DNA from: Parcubacteria group bacterium
Lineage (GTDB): Bacteria > Patescibacteriota > Minisyncoccia > JACPHC01
DNA: 45,518 nt
NCBI GenBank assembly: GCA_016188775.1
Contig: JACPHC010000001.1
Location: 1 to 45,518 of the forward strand
Reading direction: 5' to 3'
Numbering within the stretch: position 1 is the stretch's first letter; each line of letters begins with the position of its first letter. The position numbers were made by a program, and so were the translations under genes. The notes beneath the pieces were generated by a model. It worked only from the letters and a program-made list of their open reading frames with translations. It searched no databases and had not been told where the DNA came from. This document shows positions 17,967 through 43,189 of the stretch, piece after piece.

Positions 17967-18432
17967 CACTTTACTTATAGGTTTCGCCACCTTTTCTTTT
18001 TTGGGAATGATTTTGATTTTTTTTCGAAAGACGCGGGAAATTTCTCATTTGAGCGAAAATCAAATTCAGGAAATATTACAAGCTCTTGGAAGCGAGCGCG
18101 GATTTTTTAAAAGAAGAGCCGTTAATGTTTTTCTGATGATTTTGCACTCAAGCGAGAAATTATTGAGAAAATTTAAAATTTTGGCTTTGCGTTTCGATAA
18201 TTTTTTTTCCCGCCAGATTTTAAAATTGAAAAGCAAATCAACGGAATTGAGACACCCCAGTTCTTATTTTAAGGATATTCATCTTTGGAAAAAGGACGAA
18301 TATCAAAAAAATAATGAAACAATGCCAAAAAAAAATAGGGAGGGAATTTCTTTAAAAGATATTATAGATATAGAACCGATAAATCCGGCGGCGAAAAAGT
18401 ATCTGGAGGAATTTGAAAAAAGAAAAAAATAA
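17959..18432 (+). CDS. unknown single-membrane-span protein
   Basis: Not recognised. 157 aa with one N-terminal membrane segment (TLLIGFATFSFLGMILIFF) then a basic, helical cytoplasmic region (RGFFKRRAVNVFLMILHSSEKLLRKFKILALRFDNFF) and a C-terminus with DIIDIEPINPAAKKYLEEFEKRKK. Its start overlaps tsf by 8 bp, so it is co-translated with rpsB-tsf. The tRNA array follows directly. Nothing in the sequence indicates an enzyme; a membrane-anchored accessory role is possible. Confidence 0.65.
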   Translation: MTDTLLIGFATFSFLGMILIFFRKTREISHLSENQIQEILQALGSERGFFKRRAVNVFLMILHSSEKLLRKFKILALRFDNFFSRQILKLKSKSTELRHPSSYFKDIHLWKKDEYQKNNETMPKKNREGISLKDIIDIEPINPAAKKYLEEFEKRKK

Positions 18433-18488
18433 ATGATAAGCTTGCTATCTTAGTTGAGCGGGGCAACTGTTTTTCCAATCCCATCAGA

Positions 18489-18667
18489 GCCGACCTAGCT
18501 CAATGGCAGAGCAACGGTTTTGCCCGCCCCGTTAGAAATGCCGAGGTAGCTCAGCTGGTAGAGCAACTGTTTTGTAAACAGTAGGTCGTGGGTTCGAATC
18601 CCTCCCTCGGCTCATCGGCATTTCTAACTGGGTAAATAGGTTCCGAGTTCGAGTCTCGGGTTCGGCT
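18489..18667 (+). pseudogene. split tRNA halves (level 2) enclosing tRNA-Thr
   Basis: 5' half: acceptor GCCGACC (18489-18495), D-arm GCTC-AATGGCA-GAGC, anticodon-stem 5' side. 3' half: intact T-arm CCGAG-TTCGAGT-CTCGG (18643-18659) and acceptor GTTCGGC (18660-18666), pairing 6 of 7 positions with the 5' half. Between them sits an inverted repeat (GTTAGAAATGCCGA / TCGGCATTTCTAAC) that encloses an intact tRNA-Thr. The anticodon loop is not normal, so function is doubtful. Confidence 0.55.
18540..18612 (+). tRNA. tRNA-Thr(TGT)
   Basis: Cloverleaf: acceptor GCCGAGG/CCTCGGC, D-arm GCTC/GAGC, anticodon arm ACTGT-TTTGTAA-ACAGT with anticodon TGT, T-arm GTGGG-TTCGAAT-CCCTC (one T-T mismatch), discriminator T. 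CCA is not encoded. The 5' acceptor strand is also part of a 14-bp inverted repeat that flanks the gene, giving a competing fold. Confidence 0.9.
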
Positions 18668-18694
18668 CTGACGGGATAAATAGGTCCTCGGTTT

Positions 18695-18724
18695 GACCCT
18701 TCGGGTCATCACCCGCAGGGTGAC
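18695..18724. repeat. palindromic repeat family 5, copy A, in a tRNA T-loop relic
   Basis: GACCCTTCGGGTC + AT + CACCCGCAGGGTG + AC, inserted exactly between TTT and AAAT of a T-loop-like sequence whose stem is CTCGG/CCGAG. Confidence 0.85.
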
Positions 18725-18759
18725 AAATCCGAGAGGCGGCTTTGATAAAAAATATCTAT

Positions 18760-20650: not shown

Positions 20651-20723
20651 GCCGTTGTAGCTCAGTTGGCAGAGCAACTCCATGGTAAGGAGTAGGTCGT
20701 CGGTTCAAATCCGACCAACGGCT
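20651..20723 (+). tRNA. tRNA-Thr(GGT)
   Basis: Acceptor GCCGTTG/CAACGGC, D-arm GCTC/GAGC, anticodon arm ACTCC-ATGGTAA-GGAGT with anticodon GGT, variable AGGTC, T-arm GTCGG-TTCAAAT-CCGAC, discriminator T. It begins 2 bp after the tyrS stop. Confidence 0.93.
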
Positions 20724-20746
20724 CCGGCAATGAATGAAAAAATGAT

Positions 20747-20803
20747 GTCGTCGGTTTGACCCTTCGGGTCATCACCCGCAGGGCGACAAATCCGCGCCTG
20801 GGC
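20747..20803 (+). pseudogene. tRNA 3'-half relic carrying palindromic repeat
   Basis: After tRNA-Thr(GGT) a sequence GTCGTCGGTTT...AAATCCGCGCC resembles a tRNA 3' half (T-arm and acceptor). Its TTT/AAAT loop is split by a family 5 palindrome at 20758-20787 (GACCCTTCGGGTC, AT, CACCCGCAGGGCG, AC), the same insertion point as at 18695. No 5' half is visible. Confidence 0.45.
20758..20787. repeat. palindromic repeat family 5, copy B
   Basis: Differs from copy A by one base (GGGCGAC for GGGTGAC) over 30 nt; flanked by TTT and AAAT as in copy A. Confidence 0.85.
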
Positions 20804-20823
20804 TCATAAATAAATTTAAATAT

Positions 20824-41647: not shown

Positions 41648-43135
41648 ATGAAAACTGAACCAATAAAAATTGAGCCCGGTCATTTAAGAGCGCGGATCGC
41701 TCCTTCGCCGACCGGCGCTTTGCATATCGGCACTGCCAGAACGGCGCTGTTTAATTTTTTATTGGCGCGCCGTTTTGGAGGCAAGTTTATTTTGCGAATT
41801 GAGGATACCGATCTTTCGCGTTCCGATAAAAAATACGAAAAAGACATAATCGAAAATTTAAAATGGCTGGGCATTATTTGGGATGAGGGACCGGATAAAG
41901 GCGGACCCTACGCTCCGTATCGCCAAACCGAACGAACCGATATTTACCGGAATTATATTCAAAAACTGCTTGATCAGGGCTTGGCTTTTTATTGTTTCCA
42001 TTCCCAAAAAGAATTAGACGAAGAGAAAAAAAATCAACTGATCCAAAAAATTCCCCAGCGCCATATTTGTTCTTTTCGCGATTTAGATATTAATGAAGTT
42101 AAAAAGAAATCAAAGAAAAAATCGATTATTCGATTAAAAACGCCACAAAAGATCGTCAATTTTTCCGATTTTTTAAAAGGCCAGGTGGTTTTTGATGCCT
42201 CTCTTTTGGGCGATATTGCCCTATCCAAAGATATTGAAACGCCGCTTTATAATTTCGCCGTTGTTATTGATGATTTTACCATGCGAATTAATTATGTTAT
42301 GCGCGGCGAGGATCATCTTTCCAACACGCCCAAGCAGATTTTAATTCAAGAAGCGCTTGAATTGGATAAAGTTAATTATATTCATCTTCCGCTGATTTTT
42401 GATCCGAATCGAAAAAAACTTTCAAAAAGATTCGGCGCGGCCTCCGTGGCCGAATATCGCCGGGTCGGTTATTTGCCGGAAGCGCTTATTAATTTTTTAG
42501 TTTTAATGGGCTGGAATCCCGGCACGAATCAAGAAATTTTTAATCTTGAAGGGTTGGAAAAAGATTTTTTTCTTGAAGGATTACAAACCAGCGCGGCTGT
42601 TTTTAATATAGAAAAATTAAATTGGCTGAACGGCGAATATTTGAAAAAAATAAACGCCGATAAATTTTATGAATTAGCTTTGCCGTATCTTGAAAAAAAG
42701 AAATTTTTTGAGAAACGATTATTTAGTAAAGAAAAATTAGAAAAAATTTTGATTCTGGAAAAAGCCAGAATATCAAAACTGAATGAGGTGGGGGAGAGTA
42801 TTGATTTCTTTTTCAAAAAAACTTTAATTTACCCGGCCTCTTTGCTTTTTTGGCAAAAGACGGATAAAAAAGAAACAAAAGAAATATTAACCAGACTGAA
42901 AAAAATAATTTCGGAAATTTCCGATAGAAAATTCAATCCGGACAATTTAAAAAATCTGCTTTTCAATGAAGCCGGAAAATTTGAAAATAAGGGATATCTT
43001 CTTTGGCCCTTGCGGGTCGCGCTCTCGGGTAAAAAAAATTCACCCGGGCCTTTTGAAATTATGGATATTTTAGGTAAAAAAGACACTTTGCAACGAATTG
43101 CTTCGGCAATTAAAAAATTAAATTTACCCGCCTAA
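41648..43135 (+). CDS. gltX: glutamyl-tRNA synthetase
   Basis: Class I synthetase, 495 aa. HIGH-type motif in ARIAPSPTGALHIGTARTALFNFLLARRFGG, LRIEDTDLSRSDKKYEKDIIENLKWLGIIWDEGPD, the catalytic-domain RGEDHLSNTPKQILIQEAL, and the KMSKS equivalent KKLSKRFGA. The C-terminal anticodon-binding helical bundle is of the usual length. ATG 41648 directly follows the murG stop. Its last codons and TAA lie in a family 3 inverted repeat. Confidence 0.95.
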   Translation: MKTEPIKIEPGHLRARIAPSPTGALHIGTARTALFNFLLARRFGGKFILRIEDTDLSRSDKKYEKDIIENLKWLGIIWDEGPDKGGPYAPYRQTERTDIYRNYIQKLLDQGLAFYCFHSQKELDEEKKNQLIQKIPQRHICSFRDLDINEVKKKSKKKSIIRLKTPQKIVNFSDFLKGQVVFDASLLGDIALSKDIETPLYNFAVVIDDFTMRINYVMRGEDHLSNTPKQILIQEALELDKVNYIHLPLIFDPNRKKLSKRFGAASVAEYRRVGYLPEALINFLVLMGWNPGTNQEIFNLEGLEKDFFLEGLQTSAAVFNIEKLNWLNGEYLKKINADKFYELALPYLEKKKFFEKRLFSKEKLEKILILEKARISKLNEVGESIDFFFKKTLIYPASLLFWQKTDKKETKEILTRLKKIISEISDRKFNPDNLKNLLFNEAGKFENKGYLLWPLRVALSGKKNSPGPFEIMDILGKKDTLQRIASAIKKLNLPA

Positions 43136-43176
43136 ATTTTTCACCCGTCGTAAATTTAAAAAATTTAGGCGGGTAA
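43124..43176. repeat. inverted-repeat element family 3, copy B
   Basis: TTACCCGCCTAAATTTTT (43124-43141) pairs perfectly with AAAAATTTAGGCGGGTAA (43159-43176) around a 17-nt loop. Compared with copy A (TTATCCGCC/GGCGGATAA) the T-A pair is replaced by C-G in both arms. It supplies the gltX stop codon and could also act as a terminator. Confidence 0.78.
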
Positions 43177-43189
43177 ATAGGTTAATATT

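Follow-up and report, generated by a model that had tools for sequence, protein, structure and literature searches.

The only tRNA-Thr(TGT) gene of this Parcubacteria genome lies inside the remains of two other tRNA-Thr genes, and we conclude that the locus is probably a stack of small mobile cassettes, each of which would have brought a replacement tRNA with it. As read from the DNA, palindrome-bounded cassettes with a rescue tRNA appear to have entered the anticodon loop one after another, each replacing its predecessor. Comparisons within and between genomes show, at the level of sequence, which layers there are and in what order they came, that cassette and shell are independent, to which family the arms belong and that a single gene is intact.

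Anatomy of the nested locus

The window, i.e. the whole 45,518-nt stretch analysed here, lies on a contig that belongs to a 767 kb genome in 10 contigs. Around the locus the order is rpsB, tsf, a small ORF, the tRNA-Thr nest, tRNA-Tyr, an aquaporin-family protein, a class Ib (Trp/Tyr-type) tRNA synthetase, tRNA-Thr(GGT) and tRNA-Trp. Three tRNA-Thr layers lie one inside another at 18439-18741, with complementary arms between the layers and all features on the plus strand, and the nested tRNA locus that the first-pass annotation described from the letters is thus real. RNA folding, which that annotation had proposed as a check, shows the stretch 18430-18750 to be much more stable than its shuffles (z = -5.6).

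The innermost layer (B) is an intact tRNA-Thr(TGT) at 18540-18613, called as such by ARAGORN and scored at 73.5 bits by the Rfam tRNA model. According to the genome's isoacceptor list it is the sole tRNA-Thr(TGT), the reader of the ACA codon; this, together with the finding that the arms belong to a dispersed family of repeats, goes beyond what the annotation had claimed. The gene sits, as annotated, within a perfect 14-bp inverted repeat (18531-18544/18615-18628), which extends to 18 bp with one mismatch. On its left, cassette B comprises a CCCG linker and an arm (CCCCGTTAGAAAT) at 18523-18539, located by inverted-repeat search and near-identical in genomes G018 and G096 (G-numbers label genomes, G000 being the window's own). 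Its right arm (TCGGCATTTCTAACTGGG) occupies 18615-18632, and the first five nucleotides of this arm complement nucleotides 1-5 of the tRNA, so that the arm pair CCCCGTTAGAAAT/ATTTCTAACTGGG is lengthened by GCCGA/TCGGC, in which GCCGA is the tRNA's own first five bases. Within 300 nt, the 14-bp repeat is the only perfect one of its length in the nest region; when the whole window is shuffled in blocks, a mean of 0.17 such repeats results, and the window also has a handful of other inverted repeats that are hairpin-like for the most part. Chance inverted repeats are ruled out by this shuffle rate together with the fold stability and the arm covariation described below.

Around cassette B lies a split tRNA-Thr(TGT), shell A, whose existence and near-complete pairing the annotation had correctly recognised. 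The 5′ half (18489-18522, acceptor strand, D-arm, anticodon stem and loop to base 35) was delimited by sequence and by its match to G134 and G007, and the 3′ half (18633-18667, TAAA of the anticodon loop, T-arm, acceptor strand and discriminator T) by alignment with G134, relative to which CCG (3 nt) of the anticodon stem is absent. Six of the seven acceptor pairs form, and the D- and T-stems are perfect. Joining the halves gives CAACGGTTTTG|TAAATAGG, a TGT loop, and the insertion therefore lies within the anticodon TGT, between bases 35 and 36; the inner unit, which had been placed at the anticodon arm of the outer tRNA, is by this reading exactly in the anticodon loop. Shell A is in turn bounded by the arms of cassette A, the left one (ATCCCATCAGA, 18478-18488) recovered by inverted-repeat search and aligned with TCCCGTTAGA of G134 and G007, the right one (TCTGACGGGAT, 18667-18677) beginning with the shell A discriminator and the next base. 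Together they form the second annotated inverted repeat, 16 bp with one mismatch (18478-18493/18662-18677).

For the third tRNA, of which D- and T-arm pieces had been annotated, the 3′ side stands and the 5′ side is badly decayed. The 3′ half of this layer C (18677-18741), supported by its sequence and by a DNA search of the own genome, runs from TAAATAGG through the T-stem and the acceptor strand AGGCGGC to a final T, while the putative 5′ half (18439-18477) is a D-arm-like piece (..CAACTGTTTTT) assigned by sequence inspection. Acceptor pairing falls from 7/7 in layer B through 6/7 in A to about 2/7 in C, i.e. decay grows outwards. Within the layer C T-loop, searches of the own genome also delimit a 30-nt hairpin (TGACCCTTCGGGTCATCACCCGCAGGGTGA, 18694-18723). 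This element recurs, at the same T-loop position, in 3′ tRNA remnants that follow tRNA-Thr(GGT) in the window (20651-20806) and tRNA-Thr(CGT) on C3, and a related hairpin is found in the 3′ remnant after tRNA-Met on C10.

Several other tRNA loci of this genome have comparable surroundings. A tRNA-Pro(CGG) lies in the anticodon arm of another tRNA-Pro (CGGGGTG...CACCCCG) at about 24900-25160 of C6, between arms (CCCCATTAGAAAT/ATTTCTAACGGGG) that belong to the repeat family seen in the window. At about 106490-106860 of C3, the D-loop of a tRNA-Gln(CTG) whose halves are identical holds another tRNA-Gln(CTG) together with ∼115 nt upstream of it; this nest is bounded by CTTGCCCCGCCAAATTCAT/ATGAATTTGGCGGGGCGAAG, and tRNA-Gln(TTG) elsewhere has a matching right side. 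Similar arms lie on both sides of tRNA-Phe, and 3′ remnants with T-loop hairpins come after several tRNAs. ARAGORN and an anticodon-arm scan found no tRNA-Asn(GTT) in 760 kb of the genome; this gene may be interrupted, or fall between contigs.

Separate histories of cassettes and shells

The order of events at the nest can be read from genomes in which one of its layers is found in another setting. With the inner cassette removed, shell A and its arms match the intact innermost unit of G134 in 91/103 columns and that of G007 in 88/103, two of the differing columns being cassette bases left in by the cut. The joined shell A tRNA is 92% and 90% identical, respectively, to the intact innermost tRNA-Thr(TGT) of these two genomes, which thus represent the empty site. 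Conversely, the inner cassette (18523-18632) is identical in 116/125 columns (92.8%) to the inner cassettes of G018 and G096, where it is carried in other shells. The repeated insertion into anticodon loops that had been suggested for this locus is supported here by layer A standing uninterrupted and innermost in two genomes and by the inner cassette recurring in foreign shells in two more.

Cassettes and shells do not travel together. Between G018 and G096 the cassettes are 98% identical and the shells 78% and 67%, the level of unrelated pairs, and G007 and G134 have cassette A in common at 91%. Genomes that share a cassette have shells 62-80% identical, which equals the mean over all pairs, and their upstream DNA is 54-59% identical; their rRNA-gene DNA, by approximate values from BLAST pieces, is about 74% identical between the window genome and G096 and about 75% between G007 and G134. 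Over 171 pairs from 19 nests, cassette identity and shell identity are unrelated (r = 0.13 and 0.16).

The inner tRNA and shell A are themselves only 74% identical, below the median of unrelated tRNA-Thr genes, and each is nearer to tRNAs of other families. Simple tandem duplication, already doubted in the annotation, is rejected for the window nest on this identity. Taken with the independence of cassette and shell and with the empty-site and other-shell matches, it also indicates that the inner tRNA did not arise by local copying of shell A. The same holds across 24 Thr nests, with shell counts drawn mostly from manually read sequences. Inner genes match the 5′ acceptor strand of their own shell at 4.1/7 positions and those of other shells at 4.5/7, and the corresponding values for the T-arm are 12.5/17 and 11.5/17; since inner genes are no nearer to their own shell than to others, they appear to have come from elsewhere. 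Shell halves do belong to each other, as acceptor pairing averages 6.17/7 and is perfect in 14 of the 24 shells, while swapping 3′ halves lowers it to 4.80 (at most 5.5 in 5000 trials). Pairing so far above that of swapped halves suggests that most shells are recently dead working tRNA-Thr genes. The halves mismatch each other in G134 and G234 (3/7 acceptor pairs), and 3 nt of the split anticodon stem are gone in many shells.

Two family-level comparisons show single steps of the process. G007 and G036, of one family, have a common shell with the same T-loop hairpin and 3′ acceptor strand CTCAGG(C) and carry different cassettes. In family f34, a D-loop cassette of G281, with arm CATCTTTT, holds an intact GCCACCT tRNA, and the counterpart of this tRNA in G205 (GCCACCC) is split by a further cassette, i.e. 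by an added layer.

Nests and arm palindromes in other genomes

A DNA search of 93 genomes of the same class recovered the nest architecture in several families with differing arm sequences, and named records with the same architecture include Ca. Vogelbacteria (filed under Patescibacteria/Parcubacteria), Giovannonibacteria and Niyogibacteria. This recurrence in many independent assemblies rules out an assembly artefact, which the annotation had named as a possible objection. Matches to a pattern of right arm plus anticodon-loop remnant (CGGGRTAAAYARGT) occur in 27/384 same-class genomes (28 matches, against 7 for the reversed control), and on reading them we find tRNA-Thr(TGT) nests in 18/384, with up to four layers. 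A stricter pattern matched two of 287 genomes drawn from the phylum, both from other classes and both nests. Read by eye in the 93-genome sample, nests or shell remnants accompany about 18/55 TGT loci, 5/12 CGT loci and at most 1/23 GGT loci, frequencies that are upper estimates because many loci were best matches to the nest; plain tRNA-Thr(TGT) is found in most genomes sampled. Nests also occur at tRNA-Thr(CGT), tRNA-Pro and tRNA-Gln.

The nests vary in depth and in the loop that is occupied. Four layers are stacked in G205, a D-loop nest lies within an anticodon-loop nest in G281, and in G209 the D-loop and the anticodon loop of a single broken tRNA-Thr shell each hold an intact tRNA-Thr(TGT) gene. 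In G580, from another class of the phylum, tRNA-Thr(CGT) is followed downstream by at least five successive 3′ halves, one layer being a clean insertion (TATCG|TAAACCG) with the anticodon stem intact. Every nest has an intact inner tRNA, and many lack one shell half. The nests of G160 and G195 differ although both genomes are of one genus, and among nine genomes of one family no near-identical pair of nests was found. In G221 a tRNA-Thr(GGT) occupies a D-loop, and no difference is visible between the outer 3′ part and that of the inner gene, whereas the 5′ half differs, a sign of local re-copying.

The arms are conserved in their pairing. Over 13 bp in 21 nests, 97.8% of cells are paired, a fraction inflated by the selection of these rows for having arms, and 10 of the 13 pairs have changed on both sides; the covariation score is 0.787, compared with 0.220 for shuffles and at most 0.18 when the arms are slid against each other. 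What recurs is the ends, CCCG...CGGG, often followed by RTRAA, the rest of the arm sequence being free. The right arm of most nests starts by complementing the inner tRNA's first 4-5 bases (18615-18619 in the window), so this arm could also pair with the 5′ end of the tRNA. The arm palindrome also exists elsewhere in the window genome without a tRNA. Perfect 20-bp palindrome arms (ATTTACCCGCCTAAATTTTT) at window 43122-43178 lie partly within the end of ORF 41648-43135 and are followed by TAAATAGG, as at the nest. Solo arm palindromes with short loops are present outside tRNAs in 7/55 genomes (reversed control 0), and on inspection the interiors of the tRNA-free copies appear unrelated. By inspection, the cleanest anticodon-loop sites (G580 TATCG|TAAACCG, G059 TTTTG|TAAACCG and G021 TTTTG|TAAAGTG) have no target-site duplication, and no tRNA sequence has been lost at them.

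Formation of the nests and relation to known elements

We propose that a cassette is about 100-110 nt long and consists of two complementary arms with a complete tRNA gene and no protein gene between them. It would enter a loop of a resident tRNA that carries the same amino acid (here tRNA-Thr(TGT), between bases 35 and 36) and destroy the resident gene, whereupon its own working copy would become the cell's sole tRNA for the codon. The split resident would then be free to decay and to gather solo hairpins of the same kind in its other loops, and a later cassette entering the new gene would produce nesting. For the window this implies that cassette A entered layer C and cassette B then entered cassette A. 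The cassettes may be non-autonomous mobile palindromes that prefer loops of tRNA-like sequence and pass between species by DNA uptake and recombination or with the help of a transposase acting in trans. Selection could explain their cargo, since a hit on an essential single-copy tRNA would be survivable only with a working copy, whereas dead shells would tolerate solo hairpins; loss of an essential tRNA being selected against would be why cassettes found in functional tRNAs carry one.

Against this reading we count that no enzyme, target-site duplication or vehicle was found, that many shells share the 3-nt loss, that the tRNA-Gln(CTG) nest of the window genome and the Thr-GGT nest of G221 look locally made, and that the shell halves of G134 and G234 mismatch. 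Our search found no mobilising gene for the cassettes. Two exact patterns found no cassette in IMG/VR, and the matches in phage and plasmid records are bare tRNA-Thr only, for which reason phage or plasmid carriage was set aside. REP/RAYT mobilisation was likewise rejected: the Y1 transposase (PF01797) is absent from four nest-bearing genomes (G007, G009, G018 and G026), and the hairpins flanking Y1 genes differ from the nest arms. The ORF list has no integrase gene at cassette B, which at 110 nt is too short for one. An Rfam scan of the window at gathering scores returned four tRNAs only, and a group I intron was rejected on this result.

The annotation had offered template switching at hairpins as an alternative. 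In such a scheme the tRNA and neighbouring hairpins would fold during replication, and the polymerase would copy the leader inverted and recopy part of the tRNA, giving arms and nested copies without any mobile cassette. The right arms often complement tRNA nucleotides 1-5 (TCGGC after GCCGA, and CAGGC after GCCTG at tRNA-Phe), as snap-back copying predicts, and are suggestive of snap-back copying at some step; that arm sequences vary freely and remain complementary fits as well. Inner and outer 3′ parts are, moreover, identical in the tRNA-Gln(CTG) nest of the window genome and in the Thr-GGT nest of G221, for which template switching is a real rival and a possible origin. As a general account we consider it unlikely, because the arms have a dispersed consensus in common, inner genes are not nearer to their own shells across the 24 nests, and the window's inner gene and shell A, at 74% identity, are each nearer to tRNAs in other families; for the window nest it is not needed. 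It is highly improbable, in our judgement, that the shells are functional, with the hairpin or cassette excised from the RNA like an intron and the halves joined to a second working tRNA-Thr. Insertions do lie in loops, and acceptor, D- and T-stems are perfect in many shells, including layers 2 and 3 in G205 and G281, but the joined anticodon stem would not form in many, the window's included (3 nt missing), one half is lost in many nests, every nest has an intact inner tRNA, and the window has no group I intron match at the Rfam gathering score. Near-invariant T-loop bases are also altered on inspection (GGTCCGA in G273 and G209, GTCCGAT in G205, GCTTGAG in G059), which argues against the shells functioning as tRNAs.

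A single ancient nest, inherited vertically and retained because arms or shell aid processing or folding of the inner precursor, would account for the order rpsB, tsf, small ORF, tRNA-Thr, tRNA-Tyr and the insertion point being the same in many families, and for arms that prolong the acceptor stem of the inner tRNA. We regard it as scarcely credible, given the plain tRNA-Thr(TGT) of most sampled genomes, the different nests of G160 and G195 within one genus, the lack of correlation between cassette and shell similarity and the nests at tRNA-Thr(CGT), tRNA-Pro and tRNA-Gln.

The stack of cassettes that we prefer resembles several known systems in part. Halves separated in the anticodon loop recall the interrupted, split and permuted tRNA genes of archaea and algae, and the halves of split archaeal tRNAs bear complementary flanking sequences, as the nest does. 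Those archaeal and algal halves make up a functional spliced gene, whereas here the intact inner gene is presumed to be functional and the halves decay (PMC4090602, PMC3218864, PMC3978253). tRNA-targeting genomic islands (Islander) split a tRNA gene, often in the anticodon loop or T-loop, restore it and leave a displaced fragment (PMC4383910), and fragments from such integrations are a known annotation problem (PMC9897764). The cassettes likewise insert in tRNA loops (anticodon loop 35/36 in the window, D-loop in G281 and G205). Unlike the islands, which span 2-200 kb in the Islander search and use a tyrosine integrase, they are ∼110 nt long with palindrome arms and no gene but a whole tRNA, and they leave both shell halves, one on either side. 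Islands restore only the part beyond the crossover through shared sequence (PMC4383910), whereas the cassette supplies a complete second tRNA, 74% identical to the shell. As short, non-coding, dispersed palindromes with inverted repeats they also resemble Rickettsia palindromic elements, MITEs and REP/TIR families (PMC2229807, PMC3733652), the Rickettsia elements even sitting within the RNA genes for tmRNA and RNase P RNA (PMC2229807). Neither PMC2229807 nor PMC3733652 describes any of these with a tRNA gene as cargo that takes the place of the target. In contrast to palindromic repeat families, copies of the cassette family do not seem to have a common interior, and their ends read CCCG...CGGG(R)TRAA, unlike GTAG/CGTC-tagged REPs. 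A keyword search of the literature, which covers few subscription journals, found no report of nested bacterial tRNA genes, and such nesting of tRNA genes in others of their own kind is, to our knowledge, a new combination.

We suggest, more tentatively than the stack itself, that these elements might be a new kind of mobile element, minimal palindrome-bounded cassettes with a rescue tRNA as sole cargo that spread among Patescibacteria by repeated replacement of an essential tRNA gene. tRNA genes are usually seen as stable and vertically inherited. Here one essential tRNA gene has apparently been overwritten repeatedly by ∼110-nt cassettes, and its strata can be read for the order of events much as in geology. 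Should the cassettes indeed pass from species to species, they would rank with the smallest selfish elements to pay for the damage of their own insertion, and would help explain the tRNA fragments that lie beside many tRNA genes of these bacteria and confuse their annotation.
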